From Thuidium tamariscinum (taxonomy: Eukaryota > Streptophyta > Bryopsida > Hypnales > Thuidiaceae): 64,000 nucleotides of DNA. The notes beneath the pieces were generated by a model. That model did no database searches, was not told where the DNA came from, and was given only the letters and a program-made list of their open reading frames with translations. The first letter of the stretch is position 1. Every line of letters begins with the position of its first letter. Shown in pieces: positions 8,684 through 51,570 of the stretch. The position numbers were made by a program, and so were the translations under genes. The stretch covers positions 9,300,001-9,364,000 of the forward strand of contig OX344757.2 of the NCBI GenBank assembly GCA_947034885.2. The letters run 5' to 3'.

Positions 8684-9687
8684 ATGAGCTTTCAAAAGGA
8701 TATGAAGAAAAAAGGGACTAGAACTAAGTATAGACACAAACACATAAAAATTGACTTGGAAGGCAATAGTTTGGAATGTGTGGATTCTAATGACGAGTAT
8801 TCAACCAAATTTTCAGAAAAAAATCTTCAAGATTATGTAATCAACAAAATTATCAAGAAATCATTGAAGAAATCAAATTCATTAAAGGCTTTAAATGTAG
8901 CAGGATATTTGAATGATGACAATCCATTGGAGATTGTAATTTGAGTAAGCCTTTTGTGTGGAAGAAGAAGATTGAGGCCCATGTTCGCAAGGAAGGCTCA
9001 ACAAAGAGTTTAAAACAATTGGAGGACGAGTGGCCAAATGACAACATAGAAGAACAAATGAATCAAATACAAAGGCAAAAGGAACAAAAAGCTATAAAAG
9101 ACAAGCAACATGAAATGATGAAAGAATTCTTTGGACAAGATAAGGCAAGCCTCCAATGTAAAGATTGGCAAAAAAAAAAAAAAGAATTTGAGCATGAACA
9201 AAGTAAATTGCGAGAAAAATTGCATTTGCAAAATGATAAAGCTAAATTTGTTGATGAGCTTTCTAAAAACTTATACAATGAAGCTACCATGATGATAGAC
9301 CTTGATGTTGACCAAGTTGAAAAGTGTGAATTAAAAAAGCCTGAGTACTATGAAGTGCGCACAGGTTATACATGGAACAAATATAATCAAATGTACTATA
9401 GTTATGACAAACCTCCTCCAAAGAGTGTGCAAGGATACAAGTTCAAAATCCACTATCCAAATATGGTTGACAAAACCAAAATACCTACCTACTGTCTATA
9501 TACAGAACAAGATGGTGGAGAAACATGTTTTCTTTGTTTTCGTGCTAGTCCTCCGTATAAAGACATTGTATTTCGGATTGTAAATAATGAATGGGAGTAC
9601 TCTCACAAAAAAGGTTTCAAGTGCACTTTTGAGCATGAAGTTCTTCACTTGGATTTTAATTTCAAGAAAATTAGATACCGAAGATAA
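8684..9687 (+). pseudogene. Cactin-like pseudogene, frameshifted and lacking the central domain
   Basis: Cactin is a conserved nuclear, spliceosome-associated protein, about 700 aa in plants. Here an intronless copy starts near ATG 8684 with a basic N-terminus, reaches the family motif VAGYLNDDNP near 8900, then loses frame at about 8927, where one T appears to be missing from CCATT(T)GG. The next frame resumes with SKPFVWKKKIE and a charged helical region to about 9290. It then jumps to the C-terminal cactin domain (TGYTWNKYNQ, PPPKSVQGYKF, GGETC, FRIVNNEWEYSHKKGFKC) and ends with RYRR and TAA at the normal family end. About 300 residues of the central domain are missing. No introns and AT-rich codons fit an old retrocopy that has decayed. 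The family assignment is firm; the origin by retroposition is inference. Confidence 0.9.
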
Positions 9688-27799: not shown

Positions 27800-30521
27800 C
27801 TTAAAGGGTCCCTATATAAAGATCTAAAGTTGGTTTAAAACCAAGGTGTGGCAAGCAACGGCCAAAATTTTGAGGAAAAAATTAAACTTTTTCCAAATTG
27901 CCAAACCAACCAATCAACCACTCGGCCAAAAGCCAACCAGCTTGGTATCCAGCTAGTCACTCCAACTAAGCAAGTTTGATTAAGAAGAATAGGATCTTCG
28001 AAAATCTAAAATTTTAGAAGTACCATAGTGTTGAAATCAAAAGGAAAAGCTAGAGTAATCAAGGAAATTAGAGGGTTCAAAATCAAATTTATTTATAGTT
28101 CAACTAGGTTTGACTAGGATTTAGAGTGATCAAAATCAAGAGAAAACCAAGCCACAATGACAAGTAAGATTGAGGATTCAAAAATTTAGATTTCTAAAGT
28201 TAACTTAGTTTGACTAAGGCCAAAAGAGTTGAACCATCAAATGAGATTTGAGGCCTCCAAAGGGCCATTTCAGGCCTATTCCTGAAATGGCTGGCTATTG
28301 TCAAGCCAAAAATTAAAATTTTAAAGAAAAAAAATGATCATGTAATGCCAAAAAAAGTCAAATTTTAGAAAAAATTCATTTAATGACATGGCACAATTAC
28401 AACCACATCAAATTCTTGTATTTCTGCGTTATTGCAGTAGTTTCTACATTTCCATAGCCTTGGAACTTGCAATCTCTTAAAATACTCAAATCTCTTATAA
28501 TGTTCCCATTCACAATGAGATTGAGTCTTAGAACAAGAACCAAAGTGAACAAGAGGTCAGAATTAAACTCAATTGCATACTACGGTGATTAGAATGCTAA
28601 AAAACTTTAAAACCACACACCAAGCATACTAGCTTGGCTTGAACTCTAATTGCTAGAACTCAATAAGTGTTGGGCTTGCAAAATCTCATCAATAATAAAT
28701 AGTGGAGCTTGGATCTCATATCAAAACCATATACAAGTGCATACAAGTTGTTTGAAGGTAATTAGTAGGAAATGAAGGAAGAAGAAACTATAAAGTAGGT
28801 TAGGCCCAACCATTAGAAAAATTAGTTGACTTTTATAACCACTCCTTGATTTTGATTAGAACTTAGAAAAATAAATGAGAATAGTTTGACTTTAGAGAAT
28901 TTCTAGAGATTAGTTATATTTTAAAAAAAGATAGAAAAACTTAATTGATTTTTATTTGACTTTAGAATCCGTTTATCAACTAGTTGAAAATTAAATTAGA
29001 TTAGACTTTTATATGTTTTGACTTTAAAGTCTACAACAAAGGAACAAAGAAAAATTAGAAAGACAAGGAAAAACAAGAAAAGAAAAGAAAAGAAAAAAAG
29101 AATACACTAATTTTGAAATCCCGCATGAATGCCAAAAGTATAACTTTCAAATATGAGATCATTGAAATGGACATCGCAATGGTGCATCGGAAGGAGCTTA
29201 TGGCCAAATCATTATCATTTGTTATTATTGAAATATATCTCTAAACTTTCCCTTTTTACTTTCTTTCAAAAAATTTATAATTAAATTAGGATTAGTAGTT
29301 AAGGTTTAGATTTAGGATCAAGCCTTTAGAAGCATCATGAAGTTAGATTTGAATTCAAAAATAGTTAAGATATTTTATTAGCTAGTTGAAAAGATATTAG
29401 AATTCAAAATGGAGTAAAAATTCTAGAAGTTATAGCTAGATGAAATTAGTAGTAGAATTGAATGACAATTTAAAAATTCATAAAGAGAACAAGAATTTTT
29501 TTTAAATTTATAAAGTTAGAGCTAGGAAGAGACCATAGGAAATTAGAAAACCAAAGAATTAGGAAATTACCCTAGCTGTTAAATATTTTAAGAAAAAATA
29601 AAATTATATTTAAAAAAAAAAGATTAAATTAAAAATAAATGCAAAAGTAGATGAAAGATTAGAAATCATCTGAGAGAATCTTTAAAAAAAATTTAGAATT
29701 TAGATTAAAATAGATTTTTAAAATAAAAGATAGAATTAATTTTTACTTCTATCAATAAATTAGAAATTACAAAGGAATTTTTATAAACTGATAATGGTAA
29801 AAATTCAACCAAAAATAAATTTTACCAGGGAGGTCAAAAATAAAATTAATGTATCTAAGTAAAAATTAGGGATAAAGGATAGAATCATTTTTTACTTTCA
29901 AAAGTAAAAAGAAAATTACTAAAGAATCAGTTAATGATCAAAATTCCTCTATATAAAATTTGAGAGAAATGAATCCTATAAGTATTTTTTTCAAAAACTT
30001 CCTGTTAACAAGATTGTTTATAACTTTCACATAACTAATCCAAATGGAATGAATCAAAGTTTCACACGTAGAATAAAATATAATCTATAAGATAAAATAA
30101 TTTCAAATTTTAATTTCAAATTTTTGTGGATTTTTTTTATGCCCGCTGAGTTAAAATTTTGGCTTTTTGAGGTATAACTTTTGCTCCCGGGCACCAATTG
30201 AAATAAAGATTATGTTCCCACAAAGCTAATCAGTTTTCCTATCTTATGAGAAAGTTTCAAAAAGATTCATTAAAAATTGAGGTCTATGGAACCTGTCTGA
30301 AGTCCAAATTGTCCTCCACGGGGACAATGGACTTTAGGGGTTAAATATAAAAGACTTGAAATTTCTTGAAAAAACTCTGCTGCCCTTCACTACAGTACAT
30401 AGTATGTGGTGGTCAAGTTTTGTGTTCCCTTTGGTGTTTGATTGAATTTCTAGTGCTTCAGTGCTTGTTTGGTGATTAGCAGTTCTAGCCCGGTGATTAG
30501 ACGCATCCAGTCAATGGTGGG
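27800..30521. other. A/G-rich non-coding stretch, possible end of another TTAA element
   Basis: The plus strand is dominated by AATTAGAA-type words and carries no gene. At 30331-30344 the sequence GACTTTAGGGGTTAA matches the right terminus of the TTAA elements, and 30010-30130 resembles their right interior, so a degraded or truncated copy probably ends at 30344. Its left end was not found. Confidence 0.5.
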
Positions 30522-31545
30522 TTAACCTCGGCAGGTTTCAGGTCTTCTTTTTGCAAAAAAAAGCACTTAAAACTGTCATTTTTGTAGTAAAGAGTAAAAA
30601 AAATATGAAAATTATCTTTTTTTGGACATCTAACCATAGGATCTTACACCTAACTAGTATGAAAGTATATGGAAAAAATTTCAAAATTTTGACCACACAA
30701 ATTGCAAGATCTCTACATTTAAAATTTAAAAAATAAGTTTTTTTAGTACATTGTAGAACTGGATTATTTGACTTTGAACCTTCTTAACTTTAATGTTTTA
30801 CACTACAAAGTTTTAAACTTTAAATCTTTGTGGTGTCTAATTGAGATGAAATTCTAAGGAAAAAAAGAAGTACAAAAGAACTTAATTTTTATTCTTTGAA
30901 AAATTGTTAAACAGAAGTAGGTACAAGAGAGAAGGAAAATCTAAATTATTAATATCTCTAAGATGGAATTAAAATGCACTAATCCTAATGGTGAGATTAT
31001 TCTATTAAGAAAAATAAACCATGTAAATTTTTATTTTTTTTCAAATTGTAAAAATTATGTTCATGATTGAATCCTACAAGTTATTTTTTCAAGAAGATGA
31101 TCAAATTGCCCAAAAAAAAAGATGTCCTTAATTGAAAGCTTTGAATCATTTCATTTTGATTAATGATTCAAAAGTTATAAGTTTTTTTTGTTTGTGGTTA
31201 GTTATGGATTCTCTACTTTAAAAGAAACTTTGAATTCCTTTATTTTACTCAATTTTAAATATTTTTTTGGAAAACAAAATTCATAAGATGTAGATTGTTT
31301 ATTACAACATTCCAAACATTGGGATTGGCATTTTCAATTCCACAATTGAATCTTAACAATTTTGCATAGAATCTACACAGTGAAAAACTCTGTAATTTTT
31401 TCTACATGTTTTCAAACCAATTTACTACAAGATACTATGAATACAAATTTCAAAAAATGTTTAAAAAAATTTGATATTAGTACTAGAAATCACAGTTTTT
31501 GACCATTTTTGAAGTAAATATAGTCAAAGAATCTTAAGGGGTTAC
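30522..31545. mobile_element. TTAA-type element with long inverted arms, copy B7
   Basis: The left part (30550-30740) matches the left part of element B1, including ACTGTCATTTTTG- and AATTGCAAGAT-like segments. The right part (31370-31540) resembles the same segment in reverse, ending AATCTTAAGGGGTTAC, so the copy has long inverted arms. Termini are degraded: TTAACCTCGGC at the left is the best candidate and the right TTAA has become TTAC. No coding capacity. Confidence 0.5.
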
Positions 31546-31756
31546 AAGGAGATTTTACAATACTCAATGATGATTCCAAGGAAAGATTTTTCAAAACAAT
31601 CATATGCAACTCACCGAATGAATGATGTTGTCCATATTGACCCTTTGGCCACCTTCTAACCTTCTTCTAAGCACTGAAAGAGACAAGAAAGAGATACTAA
31701 AGCCATTATGAATATGATGCCCCCTGTTTTGTTTGACGAATTGCAATTTATGAAGC

Positions 31757-33088: not shown

Positions 33089-33120
33089 ACATTAGAGCAA
33101 ATTTCGGGTCTTCGGATGGC
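33089..33120 (+). repeat. Left terminal inverted repeat of the 15-kb element
   Basis: Reads ACATTAGAG, then two variable bases, then a TTTCGGGTCT core and GGATG. Compared with the complement of 48288-48319 it matches at 26 of 32 positions. Weaker similarity (GTTTTAGAA and ATATG words) may continue outward, so the exact element end is not fixed. Confidence 0.65.
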
Positions 33121-34889
33121 TAGTACTTTTGGCCCGAAAATGAATTATTTGATATTTGGAAAAGCATTTAATCCATATATATAGTCCATTTTAGTTGTCC
33201 TCATCAAACTTATGGCCCAATGAAAAGTCGGCGGTACATTCTAAGTTGGCACCAAAGCACTCAAGCTCGACCTACGTGGCAACACCCGATTGTCCTTCTT
33301 TTGTACAAACGCGGTCCATGTTGGCAACTTACCACTTCAAGCACTCAAGATGACAAATTGAATAATGTATATATGCCACTATTTTATTGTAACCTGTAAG
33401 TACCAACTGCCTTTGGGCTAACAATAAAATAGGATTTACTAGTTCAGTGAAGAGGGTCAACTCGCTAAAATCATTGTACATATACTCTCGCACTGTACAG
33501 TTTACTTTGACTTGCCTGCTGGAATGTAGAAGGAATGAGACAAGGTGAACGTGGAGATGCTCAAACCGAGAACATGGTACAATACTACAATCCTAAATCA
33601 GTGGTGGGCTCCCGCCAAATGACCTGGCGTCATTGACGTTGCCACAGTGCTTAGTTCACAAAGCGCAAATTAAGAGTTGGGTCTGTACAAGAATTTTGGG
33701 AGAGATGGCTTTAGAAGATGTTACCAATACAGGAAAAGATAGTTTTTATACAACCGCTGTAGTTCTTGCTAGTCGATTTGCACCTGTCGTGAGGAAGGGC
33801 GTTCGAATTGATCACCAACAGTCTAAATTTGATTTTCCAGCCTTAAGAGATTCTGGAGCCACTAATATCGATTTATGGTTGGACGGTAATCTGTACCCAA
33901 CAGACCCTGTCACTGGGAAGCCTCCACAGTTTCAAACGCTGAAGAGTTTTTTGGAATTTCTTTGCCACGGTGATTCTGGCCTTATGGGATATGCGAAACA
34001 TCTTCTTAGCACCAGTGATGCAGTGAAGGGCTTGGAACATGAATTAGGGAGGACACGAGTTGATTGTCTTTGTGAAATTGTAGGCTTGCAAAATTCCGTG
34101 GCATTGCTAAAGCAAGAACTCGCTGTTGCTAACGGTAGGTGGGCTCAACGTTCAGAGGAGCTTCTTGTGGGTAGCAGAGAAGAGATCGCGATATTGAAGA
34201 GTGAATCAGACTTGTTGAGGTCTAGATGTGCTGCACTCGAACAAGACTTGCATACAAATGAAGCAAGTTACAACAACAAACTTCTAATGGCCTAACAGCA
34301 GGGTCAAGAAGCTGCAGATCAGAAGTTGAAACGATTGCAGCATGAATTGATGGAAGCAAGAAAGGCCTTATTGAAGTTTCAAAGGAAAATGGAAAGAATG
34401 GTGAGTACTCCACTGGGTGCACAATTAAGAGCATCGAAGGGCCTGTCTGAATTAGCCAAGAGTGGTGGCACTGCACGAGCTCGTATAGCCAAAATTCGAA
34501 GCTTGCTACAACCGGTTGTAGTTCAGTCTATACAAAGTGGAAATAAGACATCCAAAGGTAGGAAGCGTTTGTGCGGTAGCAAGGATACACAAGACGAGAC
34601 GGGGCAAGCGATTGGCCGATTACTGTCAAAAGGAGAGACGTTGGCCTTCGTGTCAAATCCAGAGAATAGTTTTGTTGCAACCAGAATGACCAATTACTAT
34701 CTTGATAGAATAGGGACGGAGTTGGGAACAGAAGAAATATTAGCAGCGTGTGATATGAATGGAGTGTCACACAAAGGATACGGTGAGATCTATAAGACAA
34801 TCAAAGGGCGAGTGCAGCTCGTTGACAAGCGCCTGAAGCCAACATTTTTGCCAAATCCGCACAAGATACCTACTCATTCTATCCATTTC

Positions 34890-35120
34890 ATGAATTCAAT
34901 GTACACCATGTTGGAAACAAGTTTTCTAAGTTCAGTGTACGTTGCGTTGGAAAAAAAAACTTGAGTTGACTGTAGGACGTGTTGGAAACAAGTTTTTCAA
35001 ATTCAATGTATATCCTGCCGGAAATTGCGTTCCATGAGTTCAATGTGTAACGTGTTTGAAACAAGTTCCTTTCAGTTCAATGTATAGTTACTGTATTAGA
35101 ACAAGTTGCATGAGTTCAAT
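34890..35120 (+). repeat. Intron 1 minisatellite of GTTGGAAAC-containing units
   Basis: About six degenerate units of 40-60 bp, each with a TTCAATGTA-like start and a GTTGGAAACAAG-like end (exact GTTGGAAAC at 34910 and 34981, variants between and after). The array fills most of the first intron of the transposase-like gene. Confidence 0.75.
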
Positions 35121-36721
35121 CTCTACACAACACTAAAGAATTCAGCAGGAAACTCTATACAAGATGCATGTTGATCATTGTTTAGGTATATCGTGTCTTC
35201 ACAACATGCAATATGTTTTCAGGTTAGTTTGTTGCGAACAGAGCTTAATTCAAAGTTAAAAGATCTTGTTGGTGACTATTACCACCTCAATAGTACGCTG
35301 GAGATTGAATCGCAAGTTCCAGTGACCACTGCCAAAGGAAAGAAGAAGAAATCAGAAAAAACACAAGTTGTTTTGACATCAAAAAACTCTTTATTTGTGG
35401 ACATTGAAAATGTACAGAGGACTATGGTGGAGCTGTACGGGTTCACCATCGAAGGTTTGGAATCTTCATACTTAAACCTCCCATGAAAGGGTTACGGATT
35501 TCTCTATTTTGTGTCGTTATTGACTACTTTACAATCCCTTAGATTGTGAACGGGTACCTGATATCTATGATGTGTGTTGTTATTTACTAGTTTAGAGTCC
35601 AAGATGCTAAATGTTGCATATCGTTGTAATGTGCAGAAGTTGGAAACAAGCCGTTGGTATTTGTGCTGAAGATGGATGAAGCGGAGATACTTCATGGGAG
35701 GAAGTTCGAACGGGTCAGCTTGACCCTTATGAATCGTGCGTTGGACACCAGCATCCTTAAAACTGACGATAGATACTTTTCAGTTCAATCTGAAACTGAG
35801 ATCTGGCCTATAGTTTGCTTCGAGGTTGCCAAGGAGTCACATGAAGTTCTTCGTTGGGTGTTCCAACAAACGAATATCCCTACGTTGATCAAAGCACAGG
35901 ATGCTGGACAGTTGTTAGCAGTTCATGGTGTTGGAAACTTTAAGGTAGAGTGGCATTTGTCAACAGATATGAAGACAATCAAGTGTTTGTATGGGCTAAA
36001 ACACGGAGCCAATGCCATACACTCGGGCATTTACTGTAATCAACAGCGGACCAAACCAGTGGTAGGAACAGCAGCGAGTGCTACTTCGGAAGCCAGGAGG
36101 AGAAAACATACATGGTACGACGGCCTTTTTGTTGGTAATGTCCAATCTAAACCACTCTCCATTGATGAGGAATCACGGTGGCACCCCATTCTACCCATTC
36201 CTCTTGAGCGGGTGCATATTTGTACACTGCACGCGTTAACAAGAATGATGGAAAAGATTCTTCATTTACACTTCATGTTCATTTGGAACATGAAGAATGA
36301 GGAACATCAGCAAGGTGCCATAGACAATATGGAAAAGACGTTATCAGCAGACGGCCTTCATGGTGGCAACATACGAATCATGAAGGATCCAGCACTAAGT
36401 GGTGTTTCTAATAGTGTTCCGATCAAACCTTCCCTCAGTGGCGTAACTGCATCAAGGATGTTCCAACCATCCACTTGGTCAAGCCAAGATCGAGTATGGA
36501 AAGATGTCTTGCGCTCAGAAAACAATACCCTGGATCAAGGTAGGCAATATCTGGACAGGGTGGAAATGTGGAAAGCATTGGAAACTGTGTATCCATATTT
36601 GGTGGGCCTTTCCTTGGATCAACAACAAATCGACACTTTCAAGGGCAAAATTGAGAATTGGAGGCATCTTTACGTGAAGTGCTTTGGGGAAGACCATGTC
36701 ACTCATTATATGGTAAGCTGT

Positions 36722-36800
36722 GACTATTGGAAACATCTACAGTTGACTGTTAGAAACATTTGTAGTTGACTGCTGGAAACATCTATAGTTCACTGTTGGG
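36722..36800 (+). repeat. Intron 3 short tandem repeat of GGAAACAT units
   Basis: Three units of about 23-27 bp read TTGGAAACATCTACAGTTGA, then a GTTAGAAACATTTGTAGTTGA-like variant, then CTGGAAACATCTATAGTTCA. They lie just after the GTAAGC donor at 36713. The unit contains a near match to the GTTGGAAAC word found across the large element. Confidence 0.75.
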
Positions 36801-37685
36801 AAATTTGTTTTCATGTAGGAAGAGTTGTATACTTTGTGGAAAATTTGCAGATGTGCTTCTAATTTATTTCATTGTTGTCTTCTGTGATAGCATAACCTTG
36901 TGCGACATGGTCCTTGGTATGTGGAAACATATGGGAGCCTCGTTGTTTGGAACAATCAAGGAATGGAGAAATCTCATCATGTTGCGAAAGTTGCTAATCA
37001 GCACTACACTCAACATGGTGGTACTAAAGACAGAACAAGTGCCATTGTTCAACAATACCAACATTGGTATAGAAACATACATCACAGGTTTGCCAAGCAG
37101 AAATGATTGCAGGAGGCATTCAATTCGAGGTCAAGGAAAAAGGAAGCTGCTATGGCAACAGCAGTGCAGAAGAAGAGGATGGCCTATAACGCTTCAAATG
37201 CAATGGATGCAGCTAGAAGGTGGAGGGAAGATAGAACATGAGTTGGTAGAGCTTGGATGAAAGAACCTGCACTTGAGGATGTAGCAAACAGTACTACTAA
37301 TTTGCCAAACAGAAATAGTGGTACTATTGAATCGACAACGACGTTGGAAACATAGATAGGTCGGAGAAGCAACAAGGTCATTTATCAGTGGTTTAGTTGT
37401 TTAGGGTGTTACTTGTAGATGCACTTTCTAGAACAAACATGTATGCTACAGTGTAGGAGCTACATAAAACAGGTTGTTGGGAACAAGTATATTTACATTA
37501 CAGACTTCATATGGTTATAATTCCTTACATCACTCCAAAATTGATACACAGTTTGGGGCAGTTTGTACCTTATCTAAAAAGAACACAAATCTGATATTGC
37601 AGTCTTAACTATGTACAACTTCCAGATCACCTAAGCTATTGGCAAACAGTCGTTTGTTATCTCTTCATATAGAATTCAGTCACAT

Positions 37686-39597
37686 TCAAGTAGAAGGGGT
37701 CCTGTTGATGGAAATCTCTCCCCCTTGTCCAAACGAAACATTGAATTCACATGGGTGTGGTGCCACAAAAGTAGAGGGGCTTTCAGATGTGTTAGGCTTT
37801 GAGCTTGAAGCGCCATCTGGAAAGAGGCGTAGGTTGGCACCACCGGGCAAATTCACGGATATAGCCCAACGCATTGTTCCTGGAGACAAGCTTGGCACTG
37901 TTGGTGTCATCTCAAGGGCCGGCTCAGTACATGCTTCAATAGACATTGTTGGGAACGTCCCTCCACTAGTGTACGAAGCGGTATTTTCTCCCATCACCAC
38001 ATCTTCACTATCATTTTCGACCACTCCTTCTACAAGAACTGCCTTATTGGCTGCAAGACATTTGATAAGTGCGTCAGTCTTACAAAACATGAGCAACAAA
38101 AACTTAATTCTCAAAAAAATGTAGTTTAGTTCAAATTGCCGCACCTAATTTTGAAGCAGCTTCTGTCTCCAATCTTGTTTTCATATTGGAAACATCCCTC
38201 TCCATCCGAGATGTAAGAGGGTATCCAAATTGAGCCATCCAAGCTCCATTGAACTTTTCCTCACAACGTGGGCATTTGTGTTTGTGGTCTGCTAACAACT
38301 GGGCAATACATGTTGGGTGAAATTCACAACCACAAGAAGCAATAATCATAGCACGGGCCACAAAACCGTGCTTCGTACAGCCTGCACAGAACTTGGGTTC
38401 TGTTCTCCACATTGCCGAGATAGAGTTCTCTGTTGGGTACAGGAATGGAGCCCTCGGACGCAACACCAAGGAAGTACTTTTCAATTTCTGTAGTTTCTCC
38501 TCAGCTTCCACAACAACACTCTTGGAGTACTCATAAGCCTTTGTTGACAGTACCAACATCTCACCTTCAATATGACGAATTGATGATTCTGCCTTCTCTC
38601 GAGTCTCCGACATCTTGATTAGTCTCTCCAACATATCTCGTCCTTCTACCAACTTCCGCTTTGATAGTGCCAAGTCGGTGCATTCCCGACCCATCTCCGT
38701 TATTATTGCTAACTTCAAGTTGTCGTACTTCACCTTCAATTTTGCCTCGTCTTGACCACATGTAAGAAGTGCCTCCCTCGACTCCCTCAGGGCCTCCAGG
38801 AGGCTGTCGTGGGAAGCATGTGCTTCATCACGGATTTTCAGCAACCCCTGCAACTCTTCTTCCGCCTTCGCTACTACTGTGGAACCTTTCAGGTTACTTG
38901 ACCGATTCCTACAGCTTTTTTGGTCAGAAGCATTCGCGATGAAACTATGCATGACGGAGCACAAGGTAGCTAGTTGCTCTCGGATTGCCACAGGTCCCAA
39001 TTTGTGCCGATTGTGTTTCTTCTGGTCCATTCGCTGGTTGAGCCTCTTGATTGCCTCTGACACCCAATCGATCTCAACTTTGTGCACGAACATGGCAAAG
39101 CAAGCGCGTAAGAACCTCAAAGAGAAGGAATCGTTACAAGGTTGGCCTCCATACACTAGCCTGTGCTGTTCCAAGAACTGTGACACTTGCTCGTTGTCAG
39201 CACATAAGCTAACTGGAAACCTGTATGGATCTGAACGTGTCTTCCATTTCATGAAGATCTCTTCGTCACAAACTGGTGTTTGCCCTATAACCTGGTCTAC
39301 TTAAATACCTCGAGGGCATAATCCAACAACTACAGTGAAAAAACGCGCGTCGTACACACCATGACGACCTTGAAGCACGGGAGCAACAACAACCATTTGC
39401 TGCTTCAAGGCGTCAGGAATTCCCTCCATTGGAATTGGCTCTTGGAATTCGTCATCCACTGCTCCTGCACCATTACCTCTAGGGCTACCAGAGTCCTCAA
39501 TCGAATCGCCAGGCTTCTCCTCAATTTTGGAGGGCGTATCAGAATCCTGCAAATTCTTCCTGTTGGCGACACAAGCGCGAATCGGTTGCCTCTTCAT
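37686..39597 (-). pseudogene. Coiled-coil/RING-like protein gene with one in-frame stop (paralogue 1)
   Basis: Exon 1 (39597-38145) starts MKRQPIRACVANRK and contains a TAA at 39301-39303; the same frame continues through VDQVIGQTPVCDEE. A donor GTGCGG and acceptor TCTTGCAG join it in phase to exon 2 (38050-37686), giving 605 codons plus a TGA stop. Order of parts: a segment shared with the gene at 42845 (EGIPDALKQQMVVVAPVLQG, FLRACFAMF, GPVAIREQLA), a long coiled coil, then a RING-like finger (CAGC, SCGCEFHPTC, CPRC), and a Pro/Ser-rich tail. RING fingers usually act in ubiquitin or SUMO transfer; whether this one does is unknown. Its 5' end faces that of its paralogue across 3.2 kb. A single C-to-T change would explain the stop. 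Confidence 0.7.
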
Positions 39598-39603
39598 CCT
39601 GTT

Positions 39604-42600
39604 GGAAACGTAGAACTCTAAGGAAGAATACGGTTGTGACTGATACAGTCGTTCCTACGCTCAAAACAGAAGAGGTGAAGGCAAGAAAATGAACTGCTAC
39701 AGTGGTCGGAACAAGGTGAAAGCCTTACAATTTCAAACTGAAATGTGCAAGCAGTCATCATCAAAGGTAAATGCGGACAACAATTAATCAATTCTACTTG
39801 CTTGGAGTCTCAAATCAGTTGCCGTTGGGATCATAGGCTAGTAACTTACCCTCTCAATGACTAATCATAAGGCTAAATTATGATGCACTCAAATGTTGCC
39901 ATCAAACAATGCCATCAACTACTCTTGTGGTGCCATCAAGTATACTAAATAGTGAAATTATCCCATATCAATTTACACAAAGATTCAAAAACACATTAGA
40001 TTTACACTATATCATATACAATGTGTGTTTAGGGTTAAATAATGTGGACATTAAGCATAGATGTTTTGACTAAGGGTAAGGCACCTACAACCAATCAAAT
40101 CAAAAATTTGGGTATGATTTGGAGTATTGCAAGTTCAAGACAATATTTTTAGACATGCAATCACATACATGATGGAGATTGCCAAAACTTTGCCCATTGT
40201 TTTGAGATTACTACCAATTTCAGAAGGCAAAAGGGTTTTAGCTAATTCTTAGAGAATCCAAAGACTTTTAATTTTAATCACTGAAGTTTTAAAATTTTCC
40301 ATTCATTTCTTCCTACTTTCTTGCTCAGTACTTTTGAATATGTGCCACCCTAAATCCCATACCCTCCCCATTTTTTTCCTTTGGATTTTAGCTAAGACCG
40401 GCTTTTACCCGCATGACTTGTTGGATATATTTTAACCCACCATAGCAAATCATCCCACTAACTCTCCCCATTTTTTTTTCCTTTGGATTTTAGCTAAGAC
40501 CAGCTTTTACCCGCATGACTTGTTGGATATATTTTAACCCACCATAGCAAATCATCCCACTAACTCTCCCCATTTTTTTTTCTCTGGGTTTTAGCTGAGA
40601 CCCTTTTACTCTGGCTTGACTTGTTGGATTTATTTTAACACACTATAGTAGATCATCCCACACCTTCCCCATTTTTTTTTCCTCCAGGAGACCCTTTTAC
40701 TCCGGCTTGACTTGTTGGATTTATTTTAACACACTATAGTAGATCATCCCACACCCTCCCCATTTTTTTTCCTCTAGGTTTTAGCTTAGATTCTTTTACG
40801 GGCATGATATGTTGGATTTATTTTAACCCAGCATAGCAAATCATCCCACACCCTCCCCATTTTTTTTCCTCTAGGTTTTAGCTTAGATTCTTTTACGGGC
40901 ATGATATGTTGGATTTATTTTAACCCAGCATAGCAAATCATCCCACACCTTCACCAATTTGTTTTCCCTTTTCAGTCCAAAAAAATGTGTTTACCAATAT
41001 TCTTATTCCCTGTTTTGGGAATTATGTCATTAATTTCTTTATTTTCAACATGAACTCAATTAATTTTTTTTAAATATATATTTTCCCTATGTCTATCTAA
41101 GTTTTTACCAAGTTTTTGTTTTTATCAACATTTTAATATGGAGTACTACATTTTACACTACATCGTTTTTCCCCACATTGACAATTTGACATTCTATTTC
41201 TACCTCTCTCCTTAAATCAATGATCACCCTTTTTTTTTTTTCGAAAATCCTAGAAATCCAAATTCATACTATTTTTTTGTTCAATTGCCCCTTCTATAGT
41301 ATAACCTCCACTAGTACCATTTTTTTTTAATCCCGAACCCTATGTCTTTGCCAACCAGTTGTAGAACATTGACATTTTTTTGTTTCCAGAAATTGTTACT
41401 AAATCCAAATTGACATTGTTTTTTTTTCAATTTTTCCTAGCTTGGCTTATGTCTTGGCTTCAACATTGACACTCTATTTTTTTCTACTAAGTGCTTGAAA
41501 ATTTGGCATTTTTTTTAATAATCCAAAATTTTGATTTATAATTTTTTTTTAAAAATTACTCCCTCTAGTATGTTTTTTCTAACATTTACACCCTATTTTT
41601 TAAACATTATTATAGTTTAGTTTTTCTATATTTTCATTTTTTTTCAATCTTAACTCTCTATTTTATACAATTTCTTTCCTACTACATCATAATGTCCTTT
41701 GGGATTTAGCCAAATTTAAATACTATAGATTATAGAGACTCTCCTAGAGAATATTCTATTCATCAATATCAACTAGTCAATAACCTTGTGTTATTAAAAA
41801 TAGACCTTAAAAGTATCCTTCAATATAAAAGTGAAATATACTGAAGTAACTTGCAAGAAAGACTAGTTTGAAATGAGTATCTTGAATTTGAAGAAAAAAT
41901 AATCTTATAGTGAAATATTACAAATGTCCAATCTACATTCAATTTGGTCACAACATTCTAATTCTTCACTTCTAATTATAGGATAAAAATACAACTTTCT
42001 TTCTAGCCTAGTACATCTAAGGGTGTGAATATGATCTATGAAGGTCATTGTAGAGTATTGTCTACTACTACAAAGACAACGGTTTAGTATTGTCAGTATA
42101 TAAAAATCAAAGAAATTTCATGTCTGTGTATGCTGAATCTGGAATGTACTTTTAGGAAATGCATAATTTTTGATCTCTAATTCCTAAACTAGCCAAAATG
42201 TGATTTTTTGTTGAGAAAAGTCCCTCTAACTTTGTTGAATTGCTTATTTTGATGTTCTAGGGGTGTTTCCATCTTGAAACTTGTAGATGATTTTTGGGCT
42301 ATAGGTAATCACCCCTGTAAACAATGTTTAGTCCCTAAATTAGGCACCAAAATGTTGGCTTCTTGTTCAACTTGGCGCAAATTCCTAGAAGCTTAAAATA
42401 AGCCTTGGACATTTAGGGGCTAACCAAAATCTTATAGAAACATTAAATCACTACTCTAGTAACCTTTCACAATCTATAGTACTTGGTAAACAAGTTTACT
42501 TAACTAAACTCCACTTGGTAATTGATAGTGGCCTTGAAGTATGCATTAGAGCAAGTTGAAGTCACCCTTGATTGTGTGGGGAAGGTGTCACCAGTCAATG

Positions 42601-42844
42601 TACTGGTACTAATGCCTTGTTGCCGTGTGAAGCCATCCTTGTACTTATGATTGTTGGCGGCTCTGTCAGCGATTGTTGCCATCATGCTTAGGGCTGGAGT
42701 TTACGTCTACCTGTGTTTAGCCTTCTTCCTTCCCTTCACCTTTCTCCTACAGCCAGCATACATTGGTTCATAGTTTGTTTCCATCACGCGAGTTGTCTTC
42801 TACACTTTTTCACTTTAGTTTTTGGTGTGCAGTCCGTTCCAACC
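39604..42844. other. Divergent intergenic region between the two RING-like paralogues
   Basis: No gene is seen. It holds the satellite at about 40350-40955, T-rich low-complexity sequence (41000-41700) and, at 42410-42425, an ATTTAGGGGCTAA word that may be the right end of a degraded TTAA-type element. Promoters of both flanking genes would have to lie here; no specific motif is claimed. Confidence 0.5.
40350..40955 (+). repeat. Satellite of six 90-102-bp units arranged in three near-identical pairs
   Basis: Each unit has CTCCCCATTTTTTT, a TTTTAGCT word, a TTTTAC word, GTTGGATTTATTTTAAC or GTTGGATATATTTTAAC and ATCATCCCAC. Units 1 and 2 share TAAGACC(G/A)GCTTTTACCC. Units 3 and 4 share CTTGACTTGTTGG and CACTATAGTAGATC. 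Units 5 and 6 share TACGGGCATGATATG. Adjacent units are much closer to each other than to the next pair. Unit 4 lacks part of the TTTTAGCT segment. Confidence 0.85.
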
Positions 42845-44958
42845 ATGAGTGCCAGCAGAGGTAATCGCTCGAAAAGCTCTGCCAAAGGCAAAGCTGCTCT
42901 GCAAACAAAGGCGCGGAAGTCTCCTAGGAAATCGAATTCTCCAGTTCCTTCCGTCTCACTTCCGAGTGACTTGTCATGGGAGGCGCCGTTCAATTTAGAG
43001 GGGATTCCAACAGCCTTGAGAGAGAAGCTAGTTCTGTTGGCACCGTGTTTGTTAGGGAGGGCAAAAGCGGTTTATGATGCGGAGTTCTTCCATAGGGTGG
43101 TGGGACTTTGCAAGGATGGTTTCTTGTCGAAAGAGGTGACGGAGAGCATGGCCCCGTCACACTTGTTTGAGGACGATTAGCCTTGCGGGGAGGGTGCCAA
43201 CAAGATAAGGTACTTATTGGATAAGTGTACTGACAGTAATGCCCGGGCTTCATACTTGAGGATGTACCAACGAGTATATGGCGATTCACCCGACAACAAA
43301 GCGTTCAGCTAGACTTTCCTACGCGCATGTGTGTACTACTACAACGATGGAGGGCGCAAGAACCCAGTCAATTGGGCAAGAGCAGCTGCGAAAGTGACAG
43401 AGGAACGTCAAGCTCACCCTGGCAATAATCCATTGAAGCTGGGACCTCCAGCATTGAAGCAACAGCTTGCGAGCATTATGAGAGAGTGTAGCGCGTATTT
43501 CCAGGAGTATGCTGGAAACAAGCACGATGGAGATGGAGGGAGAGACACTAGCACACGGAAGGTAGACGAATTGCTGAAGGAGATCAACAAAAAGACTGCT
43601 GATCTTCGTAGCGGAGAGAAGGCAATTGCCGAATTGAGTGATGGCATCTCCAGTCTAGAAGTGCGGAAACTGGAGTTGGAAGCCGAGGATGAGCGCCTCA
43701 GTTCTCTGTACGGTGACTTGCGCCAAAGGAGCAAAGAGCTTGCTAAAGCTGGGAAGGTGGAGGAGAAAGCTCTTGTCAACAAAGAGCATCGACAAATTAG
43801 CAAGGACATTGCGGCTAACAACGACAAATTGGAGGAGTGCCAAGATTGTGCTTTGAAGATGGTGAGATGCTTTGAGAAAGACACTGCCCTCCACAAGATT
43901 GACAAGAAGGCGTTAAGTGATTTGCACAAGAAGTGTGCAGTAGAGAGAGCAAGTCAATACTCCATCAAGCCAAAAGAGCCTGTTGGAAACAAGGTGTTGG
44001 AAACGGGTGTTTTGTTAGATATTAAAGTGGACACACCGTGTGGATGCTGCTCGCTCCTTTTCGTTTCCAACACTGCAGTACCGTTTTCTTGTGGTTGCCT
44101 ATTTCATCCCTGGTGCTTGTGGTCAGAATTGCTTTCAGGGTGTCGCATTTGTCCTCTGTGCAAGAAAGAGGGTGACTCTCAGTGGTTGGAAACAACCAAA
44201 GTAAACCCCGAATCCAAAAAGGAAGGAGTCCCTATGCCGAAGTCGTCTCCGTTTGTGGTACGCAAGAGAGAAGCTACAAATAGTGGTGAGAACCAACCTC
44301 CACCAAAGTTGTCAAAGTCGAAGGTTTCGATTAAGGGTCCATCGCCCTTAGCTGGTAAGGCAATCTCTGACATCACTCCAATGAAAAAAATAAACCCACT
44401 TTTGCCATTTCCTGCACTTGCCAACCAACCTCGTGGAAGTAAATATACAAAAGCTATAGCTGCAATTCTTGCGACCTTAATCGAATATAGTACGTTCCCT
44501 TCAGAGTTGTATTTAGATCCAAACCCGCTCTTGTATGGTTTTCATGTTGGATGTCGGAGGTCAAGATTGCTTGTTTGCACCTCTGCCTTGTATTTGCGTT
44601 TGTTGGAATTGTTTTGTGTCTCTAGAACAACACACTCACTAACACTAATGTTGGATGTACTATGCCTGAAACAACAAATCAAACAATAGAGGACAACGAG
44701 AAGGAAGAGAGGAAAAAGGTGCGTGAAGATAACCCCCAACAACCTAAACCGAAGGTTGAACCAGTGTCAACAGATTCAACAGCCCCTCCACAGATATTGA
44801 AGGGGTGTGGAGATGGCAAACCTGTTGAGTCATCAGCCGCAGATGCAACGACACCAGAATTGGAAGTTGAGGAGGTCACTTCTTCCGAATCTTCTGAAAT
44901 AAAGCAGTCTCCACCATCAACAACCCTGGAGTCACTAGTTGACGCCATGTGTGATTGA
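42845..44958 (+). pseudogene. Coiled-coil/RING-like protein gene with two in-frame stops (paralogue 2)
   Basis: The start ATG at 42845 gives a Lys/Ser-rich N-terminus. TAG codons lie at 43178-43180 and 43310-43312, but the frame stays coding through both and matches paralogue 1 (LEGIPTALREKLVLLAPC, then FLRACVYYY, then LGPPALKQQLASIM). A coiled coil spans roughly 43550-43950. A RING-like finger follows at 44037-44160 (CGCC, SCGCLFHPWC, CPLC). A Lys/Pro-rich tail leads to a donor at 44355 (GTAAGG) or 44439 (GTAAAT). The last exon lies in another frame and ends in an acidic Ser/Thr tail with TGA at 44956; its acceptor (before 44626 or 44690) is not resolved. Start sites of the paralogues face each other. 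Function as for paralogue 1: possible modifier ligase, unproven. Confidence 0.65.
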
Positions 44959-45596
44959 CATTGGACATGAGCGGAGTTTTACTAAGTGTATAGTGAAGTG
45001 TAGGGTAGAGTTGGAAACTACTTCACCATGACAATTTTCATGTTCCTAACAAATCAGCCATAGTGAAGTGTCCTCATTGCATTGTCCTGCTGTGAACACT
45101 CTTTTTTATACAAATACACATTTTGACACCTTGACTATTCCCCATCTTTCTTGACTTGATATGTGCATTGGTTTTGTTTGCCACTCATAAGAGCAATGGT
45201 AACAAATTAGTCATGATAGTTAGTTTGCACACTTATCTTCTGGCAGCCGTTGGAAACACCATGTCATAGTGCTTTTGATACTCATTTCATTCTGCCTAAA
45301 CCTTTTGCCAAGCCATATATTTAAACAACACCATTGAAATGAGTGGCAACATAGTTTGAAATGGGGTGCCTTTACAAAAATTGGCATGGCATTGTGTGAG
45401 AAAAAACAATGTCCAGATAGCAAAAATCTAACCTTGGAGTAGTTCCTATCACGGTTGTTAGTCACATACAAGACCGTAACTAACCCTATATCCTTTTAAA
45501 CACCAAATTGTTTCCAGCATGGTGAACAGTCACTTGTAGAAATAGTTTCCAAAACTTCCTAGAACTACTAAGTAAGCTGTTCTAGTTGGTAACTGC
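44959..45596. other. Intergenic spacer inside the 15-kb element
   Basis: No gene seen. It contains two exact GTTGGAAAC words (45010 and 45249) and near matches. Confidence 0.5.
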
Positions 45597-45600
45597 TACT

Positions 45601-46327
45601 GGGTTGTTGCAAGAAACACTTACCAGTTTTGGCTCAAAATGGCTCAAAATCAATGAGTCCTGTGAGTCCTATGACCCTTTGAAATTAAAAAAATTTAAAT
45701 TGAAAAAAATATGGATAATTTGAAGAGCAATGAGAATATTATGTCCCTTGAAATTCAGACCTAAGAAAAAATTTCTCTAAATGTTATAGACAATGGAAAA
45801 TACAATGAAAATAGCTCCTTTTTCACTAATTTGGTAAAAATAGTAAAAAATTCAAAAAATGAAAATGAAAAAAGCTTTTTTTCTTCAAGTAAAGATCTTT
45901 CTTTTCCAACAAATTTCATCTTTGGAAAAAATAAATTCTATTCTCCACACTTGCGTAAAGTCAGCCACTTTGACGACATGTGGAAGTTGGACAGTTTAAT
46001 ATTTTCAAAAATCCTTTTTAGGGATTGTGTAACTATACTATATATCTAAGCATGCCAATTTTCAGCTCAAAATTTGAATTTTTGGGTCAAAAATAGGACT
46101 AAAAACCCCCAAAATGGCCAAGGTAGACAACCAATCGGGGGCAGTTTTAAAATAATAAACTAATTTTAAAAAAATTGAAAAAATTACACAACATATAAAA
46201 TTTTTTTGTGAACCTTCATGTAAAATTTCAAGTTGATAGGGCAAACGATTCAAAAGTTATGAGCAAAAAAATACTTGTTGGAGGTCAAGGGGACAAAAAA
46301 TAGGACAAGTGTTTCTTGCAATCACCC
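45601..46327. mobile_element. GGGTGATT-ended DNA transposon, copy A3, inserted at the 3' end of a gene
   Basis: The left end GGGTTGTTGCAAGAAACACT and right end AAGTGTTTCTTGCAATCACC are inverted. TACT flanks both sides (45597-45600 and 46328-46331), a 4-bp target duplication. The 727-bp body shares its right part with the copies at 55154 and 63359 (a GTCCCCTTGACC-type segment, complement here). It lies exactly at the 3' end of the minus-strand 408-aa gene and supplies that gene's stop codon. Confidence 0.85.
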
Positions 46328-47800
46328 TACTATTTCGAAAGTCCATGGAGGTAGGACTTGTGCTACTGTATTGGCATTCTTGTGCCTAGGATTTATGTTG
46401 ATGTTCGGTAATCCAATTTGATGAAGCTTGAAGCGAAACTCCTCTGGAATAACATCGCCCAAGGTGATACAAACCTCGCGGCGAACGTGTGACAACGGCC
46501 ATGTTCTTCCGACTTCAAACCTTGCCACCGTCACACCTTGAAATAAACAAGGAAGAACCACCATGTCCTCCTCCTGCACTTGGTCAATCTGTTGCCAAGT
46601 TACACCATCTTGACCCAACCGCTCTCTACCGTACTTGAAATTTGTGTACAACATTGATCGCCCTACATGGTACCTGAGCCATACAACACAAATTAAAACA
46701 ACCCTAAATCTGACGTTGGCAATAGTTCTTAAATGGAAAATCGCAAGAACACAATGAAATGGCTCTTCCAAGAAAACAGTGTTACCTGAAGGTCACAGTG
46801 TGCATTGATATAGTGCACCTAACTATATCCTTTTCAAACACAATTTTTTGATGCCACCCTGGATCCATGAGGCTGGTGAAGAGGTCTTTGGAGGGACTGT
46901 TCACAACGTACAATGTAGCAGTGCGTCTGATACTGTCCTCTGCAGGCGCAAACAAGTCTACAAAAACATGGAGCGGTACAAACCACTGGAGGTGTCCCAT
47001 TCTACTTCCAATGGTAGCCTTGGTGACAGTTTGGAAATCCTGGCGCAATTTGAAGCGAAAAGCTTTGCTCGTGTGCATATCCGGGAGGGGCCACTCCGGA
47101 TCAGTGAAAGGTGGCAACAACAATGGCTCAACTGTTCCGTAAAGAAGCCCGGGCGTAGGTGGAACATAGACCAAGTTAGAGAAAAATATCCCGTTGTCAA
47201 GAAGCTCATTGTGAGACCTCCCATTGCGAGTGGCTTCACCAATCTCACTGTGCAAAACCAGAATGACTCCAAGTATAGACGCCGGATCCACCCAGTCTTC
47301 AAAAAATGACTGATACAGAACTATTTCCAACAGACACTCCAACAGAAAGAATTAACAACCAGGAAAAAGATGTAGCTATACGAGCTTAAGAGAAAAGCAA
47401 AATTACATGAAAAAATTGGAACTCATTCAATGTGGAAACAAAGACACAATCTACTCTCACAGTTGCATGGAACCCGATCATGGCGAATTTCCGGATCCAG
47501 GAGCACTTGATGCCTGTGGTAAGCATGTCGAACCAACACAGACTCCAATTCTGGCTTGTTGGAAATAAGTCGACGGCCGTCAACCTTGAACCTGAAGTCA
47601 ACAATTTGGGCTTTATAAGATCCCCGCATTGTATCACCTCCATGTCGGCAAGCTTCTCGAGCCCAAGTTCCGTTTCTACCAGGATTTAACCTGACCCATG
47701 ACAACCTCTCGTATCGTGTAGGAATCCACTCTCCCTGATCGTTGTGCGTATTGTGAAGCGTCACAACTGTAACCTCGGAGCGTGGTCTGCGATTCTCCAT
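46322..47800 (-). CDS. Three-exon gene for a 408-aa protein of unknown function
   Basis: Exons 47800-47461, 47320-46786 and 46673-46322 join in phases 1 and 2 with GTGAGA...AATAG and GTAACA...CTCAG introns, leaving one unbroken frame of 408 codons plus TGA. The protein starts MENRRPRSEVTVVTLHN and has no clear signal peptide, membrane segment or coiled coil. It is rich in Trp, Phe, Arg and Pro (VPPTPGLLYGTVEPLLLPP, WPLPDMHTSKAFRFKL). I recognise no family. It is the only gene of the four in the 15-kb element without an in-frame stop. The last codon and stop (GGG TGA) come from the terminal bases of the inserted element A3. Without the insertion the frame would read four more residues, AVTN, then TAG, so the insertion trimmed but did not destroy the C-terminus. 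Role unknown; it could be an accessory transposition protein or cargo. Confidence 0.65.
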
Positions 47801-48287
47801 TCCTCACGCACTATCCAATCTCAAACTATACCATGAAGTTGTTACCAACAGTTGCCTCTATTTGCACAAACGCTTTCCACTCAACACCACTCGAGTTTAC
47901 TAAACAGGTTTTGACAACCTGATTTGCATTAGCTTCTTTCATCTAGGCAAATTTTACAGGAAGAGGCCAAATTCGTATCCAGTTTGAAATTCCCCCCAAA
48001 CTGGACAAAACATCACATCAATCGTTGACATCCAGGCGGCTCCACTACCGGTATACATTCTCTGACTAGTCCGAATGTTGTACACCCTTTCGCACAAATT
48101 CCTTTTTTTACTAGCAAATCAGGACAAGGGACAAATGGTACAGCATTAGAATACTATATCGAAGGGCTTGTTGCTATTGGTGGCAACGTGGGCTCAATCT
48201 GATGTCATCGTCTTATATGCCATGGTGGCAACGTGCACGGTGGCAATTCCAAGAATTTTGGAGAGCAAAATTACAAAAACGAAGTTG

Positions 48288-48319
48288 GGCATCCAGAGAC
48301 CCGAATTTCTCTCTAATGT
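48288..48319 (-). repeat. Right terminal inverted repeat of the 15-kb element
   Basis: The complement reads ACATTAGAG, two differing bases, then AAATTCGGGTCT and GGATGCC, matching 33089-33120 at 26 of 32 positions. Just inside lie several GTGGCAAC words (48180-48240), also present inside the left end (33280-33340). Confidence 0.65.
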
Positions 48320-49983: not shown

Positions 49984-51570
49984 TCAAGGAATGGGCGAGC
50001 TGTGGGTTCGTCGCAGCCGCTTCTTGGTCCGAAAGCTGGGCGGGGGCCTGGGCAGCAGCAACACGGCAGCGATGCCCCCAAACAGAGCCGCGCCTGCGCC
50101 CAGCAAGAACGCCGGCATGTTACCTCCATTGAAAAGCTCATCCCAAGGCCCGCTTCCCACCGAAACCACCACCTGGGGCATCACCACGGCGAGGTTGAGC
50201 ACGCCCACCGACAGCCCTTGGCCCCCTCCCACCTTCTCCGTGTAAGTGGCCGTCAGGGAATACGGAACCGAGTACGTCACTGCAAGGGGGGCTCCCAGTA
50301 CGGCAAAGATGGCAAGAGCAGAATAGACAACGTAAGTTGGAGGGCCGTCGTTCGGGGCGAAGTCGCGTGCTCGGGAAGCCGCACCCGTCACCAGCGCCGT
50401 TCCCACAAAACAAGCCGCCATAATCACGTTGGCAATGCCCCAGACGTAGCTGGACCCCAGCTTCCTGCACACGAACTCGATGGCGAGCGAAGACAGACCC
50501 AAGACAACCGAGTTGAGCAGCAGCCCGAGCGCGCCCATGTGCACCCCATCGTAGTACCACTTGCTTGTAATCCCTGAGGCGGAAGGGTTCCCACCATAGA
50601 CTTCCCGGCCCATCCAGTCGGTGTCGAAGAGGAGGAAAGGAAACCACGCCACCCATGTGAGTGCCGTGACGAACAGGATGAACCACATGGGCTTGGGGAG
50701 GTCCCTCAAAGCTCCAAAAAGCTCCCAGAACAGAGCTTCCGATTCCGCCTCCTCCTCGTCCTCCTCGTCTTCTTCGTTCTGGGAGCCGCTCACACTGCCG
50801 CCGGAGGTTTCTGATGCCAAGAGGGGAGTCGTGGGCTTCACAATGGCGTGGTGCTTCCTGACATACGGATCGTAGGGAATCTCGCTCGCCGCGGTCACGC
50901 TCAAGACAGTGGTGGCCAACAACATGATCACTCCCAACAGGAACGCCGACTTGAGGTTGGCACAGGCCTCGTCGCAGGCTACCGTGCGGGTGAAGGGGAA
51001 GATCTTGTACCACCCACCGTAGGCGCCGGTTGCGAATCCCAAAATGTTGCCGAGGGCCATGAACAGAGAGAAGAAAGCGTTGGCTCGCCGGTTGCGGGTC
51101 TGGTCTTTGCCTGTGAAATCCGCCAACAGAGCCCTGCAGGGGCCCTGGAGGGTGTTGTTGGCAAGGTCCAGCACCCAGAACCCCAAGATGAAGACAACGA
51201 TCGCCATGGGTCGGGAGTCCACAGTGTCCCCAAGAAGGAAGCCCACATCGGCCGAAAAGCCGATGATGAGAACAGCCACAACCACAAGCAGTGCCCCTGC
51301 AAGGATGAAAGGCCTCCTCCTCCCATACTTGCTTGTGCAGCTATCGCTGTAGTGGCCGATGATAGGTTGCACAATCATGCCGGAAATAGGTCCGCAGAGC
51401 CATATCAAACTGGCCCATGCGTGAGGAATGCCGAGCTCTTGAACATAAGGCGTGAGCAGCGAAAGCTGCAACGCCCAACCGAATTGAACTCCACTTGCAA
51501 CACTCGCTACCTGGATCAGCGCCCGAATCGGCACCCGGTTCTTCTTCTTCCCTCGACTCGATGAATCCAT
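49984..51570 (-). CDS. Sucrose transporter (SUT/SUC, GPH family, MFS fold), 528 aa
   Basis: The product is a proton-coupled sucrose importer of the plasma membrane or tonoplast. The frame is complete and unbroken, from MDSSSRGKKK to a TGA stop, at the usual family length with about 12 membrane segments. Family signatures are clear: GVQFGWALQLSLLTPYVQEL (about 27-46) with the conserved His in GIPHAW (His50), GHYSD and GRRRPF (72-88), DLANNTLQGPCRALLADFTG (135-154), an acidic cytoplasmic loop (264-278), DTDWMGREVYGG with the charged Asp/Arg/Glu residues (316-327), and VTYSVPYSLTATYTE (431-445). Unlike the multi-exon genes of flowering plants it has no intron. It is strongly GC-rich inside an AT-rich region; both may reflect an early-diverging plant or a retrocopy. 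The intact frame argues it is functional. No neighbour suggests a shared role. Confidence 0.97.
   Translation of the reverse strand: MDSSSRGKKKNRVPIRALIQVASVASGVQFGWALQLSLLTPYVQELGIPHAWASLIWLCGPISGMIVQPIIGHYSDSCTSKYGRRRPFILAGALLVVVAVLIIGFSADVGFLLGDTVDSRPMAIVVFILGFWVLDLANNTLQGPCRALLADFTGKDQTRNRRANAFFSLFMALGNILGFATGAYGGWYKIFPFTRTVACDEACANLKSAFLLGVIMLLATTVLSVTAASEIPYDPYVRKHHAIVKPTTPLLASETSGGSVSGSQNEEDEEDEEEAESEALFWELFGALRDLPKPMWFILFVTALTWVAWFPFLLFDTDWMGREVYGGNPSASGITSKWYYDGVHMGALGLLLNSVVLGLSSLAIEFVCRKLGSSYVWGIANVIMAACFVGTALVTGAASRARDFAPNDGPPTYVVYSALAIFAVLGAPLAVTYSVPYSLTATYTEKVGGGQGLSVGVLNLAVVMPQVVVSVGSGPWDELFNGGNMPAFLLGAGAALFGGIAAVLLLPRPPPSFRTKKRLRRTHSSPIP

Follow-up and report, generated by a model that had tools for sequence, protein, structure and literature searches.

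A decayed multi-gene DNA transposon in Thuidium tamariscinum with a predicted RAG1/Transib-fold transposase

Is a 15-kb interval of the Thuidium tamariscinum genome, with inverted ends and four genes, a mobile unit, and does it represent a new class of transposon? The question was raised by an original prediction on a window of 64,000 nucleotides (the whole stretch of DNA that was analysed; contig OX344757.2, positions 9,300,001 to 9,364,000), which placed a transposase-like gene (gene 1), two RING/coiled-coil paralogues (genes 2 and 3) and an orphan (gene 4) between inverted repeats and proposed a new class of multigene plant DNA transposon. We concluded that positions 33090-48318 hold, with practical certainty, a multi-gene DNA transposon, in a copy that has decayed. 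The complete explanation that we prefer, in which this transposon also has a role in chromatin, was judged to have an even chance. That the element forms a new class was not shown, as the predicted fold of its transposase is that of RAG1/Transib and its motifs fit the published CMCT clade.

Element boundaries and copies elsewhere in the genome

Alignment confirmed the inverted ends as 26 of 32 matching positions between 33089-33120 and 48288-48319. Such a score was reached by two diagonals in the surrounding 20 kb, and six Markov-1 simulations gave a maximum of 24. Judged by the boundaries of other copies, the true ends lie inward by one base each, at 33090 and 48318, so that the whole copy covers 33090..48318 (15,229 bp) with the termini 5'-CATTAGAG...CTCTAATG-3', a left terminal inverted repeat at 33090..33120 (plus strand) and a right one at 48288..48318 (minus strand). 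The termini read 5'-CA..TG-3', as in the CMCT clade; in other subfamilies the right end is CTAATG or, with less certainty, GAATG. The predicted gene order of plus, minus, plus, minus was found unchanged.

The genome to which the window belongs (363,211,507 bases in 19 contigs) was searched for further copies, and ten transposase loci of 19.8 kb each were aligned to the window. In four of them, C6, C5, C4:1.2 and C2:44.6, homology begins and ends at positions 33090 and 48318, the alignment overrunning the element by four bases on each side in C4:1.2 and by one in C2:44.6. These full copies measure 14,274, 10,030, 10,064 and 10,023 bp, respectively. C5 and C4:1.2 share 97.4% identity exactly from end to end of the element and none beyond, and both ends were also visible in short stretches at C7:14.3 and C4:20.6. 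Full copies with the same ends exclude a chance pairing of repeats and indicate past movement of the unit. An interval of unrelated genes that happen to lie between matching repeats, the simplest alternative, is thus already refuted by the end-to-end copies together with the genome-wide linkage described below, and we regard it as vanishingly improbable. Neither a lack of second copies, nor homologues lying unlinked elsewhere, nor repeats away from copy boundaries came up, and there is strong support for a multigene DNA transposon with these repeats as its borders.

The target-site check gave imperfect repeats of 9-11 bases, with own scores of at least 6 in 3 of 7 copies as against 1 of 42 cross pairs. 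The flanks of the C5, C4:1.2 and C4:20.6 copies contain imperfect direct repeats of 9-11 bases, with small gaps, adjoining the ends.

Gene content differed among the copies. All four genes are present in C6, in an arrangement collinear with that of the window. A transposase, a RING gene of the gene 3 type and gene 4 were found in C5, C4:1.2, C4:19.3 (cut within gene 4) and C2:44.6; a transposase and gene 2 at C11:9.3 and C1:44.2, where genes 3 and 4 were not found in the 19.8 kb read; and only a transposase and gene 4 at C10:6.56, C4:5.0, C2:7.57, C4:18.05, C2:39.86 and C2:43.85, among which C10:6.56/C4:5.0 and C2:39.86/C2:43.85 are near-identical pairs. RING genes were thus present at 8 of the 14 loci examined, the window counted, and missing at 6, so that the predicted four-gene set stands in its order, which C6 repeats, but not as a fixed content of the element. 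The transposase exon gave at least 110 matches in the genome and gene 4 exon 2 at least 126; after merging of fragments, 93 transposase loci and 111 gene 4 loci remained. Gene 4 lies within 12 kb of 66 of the 93 transposase loci, in all 66 tail-to-tail and downstream, whereas random placement, for which the lengths of three contigs were guesses, gave a mean of 0.6 linkages and a maximum of 4 in 500 trials. In an outside protein database two contigs (129,794 and 136,396 bases) each appear for both a transposase homolog and a gene 4 homolog. Based on the gene content of the loci and the genome-wide linkage we concluded that the core of the element is a convergent two-gene transposon, transposase plus gene 4. 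The RING-bearing loci form one side of a branch in the transposase tree with a support of 97/100 (root not tested), a pattern that reads best as a gain of the RING genes by one clade.

The four genes and the class of the element

Gene 1 lies on the plus strand in four exons. Exon 1 (33705..34868, placed by tblastn and translation) contains an in-frame TAA at 34293-34295. Exon 2 (35222..35453) was delimited by eye from homologs and GT-AG borders; it is open in one frame and resembles the relative P0015. Exon 3 (35635..36715) carries two putative catalytic D residues and a C(2)C pair, the first C of which is G in this copy, and exon 4 (36891..37106) an H(4)H pair followed 20 residues on by the putative catalytic E. 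The TGA at 37104-37106, which ends exon 4, is premature: the exon is longer in relatives, and of six copies compared, four remain open here for 110 codons, one shares the stop and another ends at codon 108. H(4)H and E were kept in 13 of 13 sequences compared, and C313 and C316 of P0015 are each conserved in at least 90% of 47 rows. C(2)C and H(4)H lie between the second D and E, the arrangement of the CMCT clade, although the window copy has lost its first C. When an AlphaFold model of P0015 was used in a structure search, RAG1/Transib was the best fold match. The product of gene 1 is therefore predicted, from this model, to be a DDE transposase of the RAG1/Transib fold; the fold and the conserved motifs support the transposase-like gene of the original prediction.

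Curated profiles did not extend this assignment. None of 47 transposase homologs matched any Pfam family at an E value of 0.01, including CACTA/EnSpm or Plavaka as modelled there, and sequence searches of Pfam and PDB with the transposase and gene 4 homologs gave no credible match. Of the profile and structure searches that the original prediction had called for, it was the structure models that returned folds, RAG1/Transib for the transposase and beta-grasp for gene 4. Membership in the KDZ group, our first guess, was dropped as the fold search ranks RAG1/Transib first. An origin from a virus or phage was likewise rejected: the transposase had no match in phages, and neither it nor gene 4 had a relative in viral contigs. 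Prokaryote genomes also gave no relative of the transposase; one homolog, P0080, comes from Klebsormidium and, together with the transporter ORF near the element, points to a plant host.

The CMCT clade comprises CACTA, Mirage, Chapaev and Transib and includes Lanisha (PMC12730594, in excerpt). The element resembles the clade as described there in its predicted RAG1-type transposase, in C(2)C and H(4)H between the second D and E and in its 5'-CA..TG-3' ends, and is unlike it in that no homolog among the 47 matches Pfam, no clean duplication of 2-5 bp was found, and gene 4 and the RING-like genes are present. The element may be a member of Lanisha, a superfamily of this clade put forward in Repbase Reports 2020. 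Its class would then be an established one, with novelty confined at most to the accessory genes. Lanisha is described as similar to EnSpm and also contains C(2)C and H(3-4)H (excerpt of PMC12730594). The CA..TG ends and the RAG1-like fold agree with such membership too. The proposal of Lanisha reportedly has two authors who work on a moss, which also counts toward it. Since Lanisha was compared by description only, we consider membership a serious possibility, somewhat short of even. No such element as that described here appeared in titles or abstracts among the matches listed, subscription papers and Repbase being outside the scope of that search.

The RING of RAG1 acts as a ubiquitin ligase. 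According to a 2015 paper, RING fingers were encoded, among known transposable elements, only in two Chapaev subgroups (PMC4411706). The element is like RAG1, Transib and Chapaev in the structure match and in a RING tied to this class of transposase; it is unlike them in that the RING-like domains are on two separate proteins and not fused to the transposase (PMC4411706). A Chapaev-like RING within the transposase was not seen, as the four gene 1 open reading frames (ORFs) scanned had no RING match. No RAG2-like gene was seen either, with no profile search for one beyond Pfam.

Gene 2 (38131..39597, minus strand) encodes a coiled-coil protein with a C4HC3 RING-like pattern and has an in-frame TAA at 39301-39303; the C6 gene is open over 500 codons. 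Gene 3 (42845..44689, plus strand; 3' end uncertain) encodes a coiled-coil RING-like protein interrupted by TAG at 43178 and 43310, and is open over 637 codons in C6. The two are paralogous, as had been predicted (BLASTP E value 4e-14, 22% identity over 323 columns). Both proteins show, for eight putative metal ligands, the spacing C-x2-C...C-x-C-x2-H-x2-C...C-x2-C, the basis of our call that they are likely to be of RING type; both are candidate ubiquitin ligases. Each has homologs of its own, assigned by sequence: P0082, P0083 and P0085 for gene 2, P0084 and P0086 for gene 3, five matches among the 7,996 best candidates scored.

Gene 4 lies on the minus strand with exon 1 at 47420..47800 (from locus comparison and translation; 3' boundary approximate), exon 2 at 46785..47336 and exon 3 at 46322..46672 (5' boundary approximate). 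The intact frame predicted for this orphan was open except for the last four codons, which, compared with C6, are replaced by a nested insertion that supplies the stop; positions 46322-46327 of exon 3 belong to this insertion. The protein is predicted, from AlphaFold modelling of relatives, to end in a beta-grasp (ubiquitin-like) fold, the domain falling in exon 3. Its N-terminal part (exons 1-2) looks BAH-like by eye; Pfam at an E value of 10 gave nothing.

Genes 1-3 of the window copy contain premature stops. In C6 genes 2 and 3 are open and one stop occurs in the gene 1 exons compared (exon 2 left out). The ratio of nonsynonymous to synonymous divergence (dN/dS), given as point estimates, was low for each of the four genes when divergent sequences were compared: for the pair of window and C5 it was 0.09 for transposase exon 3, 0.13 for part of exon 1 and 0.06-0.13 for gene 4, and it was 0.22-0.26 for gene 3 and 0.25 for gene 2, with a dS above 1 that makes these values uncertain.

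The window and C6 showed a dS of 0.03-0.05 in genes 1-3 and of 0.86-1.1 in gene 4. Over its left 12 kb the C6:27.87 copy is window-like (about 95-97%), and over its right 2.2 kb C5-like (95.4%). From this mixed divergence it follows that one of the two copies is a chimera, and thus that the subfamilies recombine.

A repeated 9-mer and a possible role in chromatin

Two features were found beyond the original prediction, a nested insertion and a repeated 9-mer. The 9-mer GTTGGAAAC occurs 12 times in the element, over a span of 34910..45257, and not once in the remaining 48.8 kb of the window; Markov simulations gave a mean of 0.4 and a maximum of 2 in 100. Eleven sites are on the plus strand (34910, 34981, 35639, 35930, 37343, 39601, 43982, 43996, 44185, 45010 and 45249) and one on the minus strand (44063). 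The counts in the five full copies are 12, 16, 13, 12 and 10, and the motif is absent from the 5.5 to 48.8 kb of sequence flanking them. In addition, the 10-kb copies each have GTTGSCAAC 12-19 times, so that C5 reaches one exact site for roughly every 300 bases, in exons and noncoding DNA alike. Degenerate tandem repeats in intron 1 of gene 1 (34886..35125, plus strand; families D3-D7 and D18) include two that carry the exact motif.

The density of GTTNNNAAC per kb was 1.47-4.49 in the 8 copies with RING genes; in the 6 without them it was 0-0.62, comparable to flanking DNA (0-0.72). Among the RING-bearing copies it was lowest in the window (1.71), C11 (1.71, with mixed forms) and C1 (1.47). 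As the motif array and the RING genes share the same single branch, their association amounts to one evolutionary event; the shared branch also makes the RING/coiled-coil proteins candidate binders of the motif.

Known anti-silencing systems offer a comparison. VANDAL elements are MULEs. In Arabidopsis, VANC21 binds the 9-base YAGTATTAY and causes methylation to be lost; VANDAL21 copies contain this motif at high density and in a common orientation, frequently within tandem repeats, and VANC motifs are found for the most part in noncoding DNA (PMC5735166 and PMC10398659, both in excerpt). The element here is similar in having a dense, element-specific 9-bp motif in many copies, mostly in one orientation in the window copy, present in intron tandem repeats and changing between subfamilies, and in having accessory genes. 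It differs in its transposase class and in motif sites that lie also in exons, and the likeness is one of motif pattern. Fungal CMCT and other transposons carry TET/JBP genes that act on chromatin, likely against silencing; chromatin-acting accessory genes would be the shared trait, here RING-like and ubiquitin-like ones (PMC12730594, in excerpt).

The resemblance of the motif pattern to VANC targets led us to propose an anti-silencing model. The RAG1/Transib-fold transposase would cut and paste the element. A protein of the element, most likely of the RING/coiled-coil type, would bind GTTGGAAAC and close forms along it; the RING proteins and the ubiquitin-fold protein would modify chromatin proteins there, and the element would thereby escape silencing by the host. 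We advance this role by analogy and tentatively, as a possibility well below even. More doubtful still is the wider proposal that a plant RAG1-fold lineage carries a ubiquitin toolkit, made up of the RING pair and the ubiquitin-fold protein, together with a self-recognition code: a near-palindromic 9-mer, spaced at about 300 bases in the densest copies and present in exons too, that would label the entire element for its own proteins and evolve between subfamilies. If true, DNA transposons would have another anti-silencing route, via ubiquitin, beside those of the Arabidopsis VANDALs and the fungal TET-bearing elements, and the pairing of RING and RAG1-type enzyme would have a counterpart in a non-animal lineage, where the RING belongs to separate proteins. 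Full copies, a fixed motif and small proteins make the question directly open to test.

The same parts may instead serve transposition: the transposase or a partner would bind the motif to achieve synapsis, and the transposase would be modified by the RING proteins. The RING ligase of RAG1 and the RING-bearing transposases of the two Chapaev subgroups would suit such a role (PMC4411706, in excerpt), as would the nearly palindromic GTTGSCAAC, built as dimer sites are, and the TGGCAAC sites within 250 bases of both ends. Against it, the exact motif is scattered over the element without clustering at the ends, and the RING-less copies have a transposase but no array. We consider a transposition role rather unlikely.

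Alternatively the array could be passive, spread by slippage and gene conversion among copies, with no protein reading the motif. Degenerate intron tandem repeats do carry it, and copies exchange segments, as the chimeric C6 or window copy shows. The sites in exons of three genes speak against a passive spread, as do the different motif forms favoured by two subfamilies. Conservation of the sites also exceeded that of neighbouring 9-mers at an identity of about 76%, on small numbers: of 8 window sites aligned to C5, 4 were identical (5 when either form is accepted) versus 11% of all 9-mers, and of 7 aligned to C2:44.6, close kin of C5, 4 were identical versus 11.5%. In C6 the figures were 13 of 13 versus 69%. 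A passive array therefore appears clearly improbable to us.

Several observations weigh against the preferred reading of a transposon with a role in chromatin. The strand bias of 11 of 12 sites in the window is weaker in C5 (9 to 4), and 7 of the 12 sites in the window fall within exons, belonging to three genes, which departs from the noncoding placement of VANC motifs. Other changes on the branch of the RING genes and the motif could explain their association. Pfam RING scores for gene 2 fell below the cut-off and none was listed for gene 3. The fold match of gene 4 is to the beta-grasp in general, with domains of PI3K, kindlin and SHANK3 scoring alike, and Foldseek alone gave no E value under 0.001 for it; the P0015 model lacks the exon with the putative catalytic E. 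No match to the transposase was found within 12 kb of 46 of the 111 gene 4 loci. A common exact target-site duplication was found at none of 7 copies, although that of C2:7.57 could be TA. Finally, dN/dS was higher between near copies, at 0.48-0.77 for genes 1-3 between the window and C6, and at 0.27-0.36 and, for one short exon, 3.6 between C5 and C4:1.2, as would be expected of decaying copies.

The nested insertion and the surroundings of the element

The nested insertion (45601..46327, 727 bases) is later than the element and no part of the element proper; it has the ends GGGTKRTTGCAAGAAACACTT and a flanking TACT, and C6 holds the empty site. Parts of it are also present in the C4:1.2 and C2:44.6 regions, away from elements. 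Between genes 2 and 3 a tandem array with a spacing of 91-102 bases occupies 40354-40960, and the alignment with C6 suggests a different copy number there.

The left flank includes a dispersed repeat (30007-31547), found again in the regions of C2:44.6 and C2:7.57 and partly near C5 and C10. An ORF at 8920-9687 contains a cactin C-terminal domain (Pfam E value 1.8e-46). On the other side, 1.7 kb from the element, the minus strand of 49984-51573 holds an uninterrupted ORF of 529 amino acids for an MFS-class transporter (Pfam MFS), which we take to be sucrose-transporter-like.

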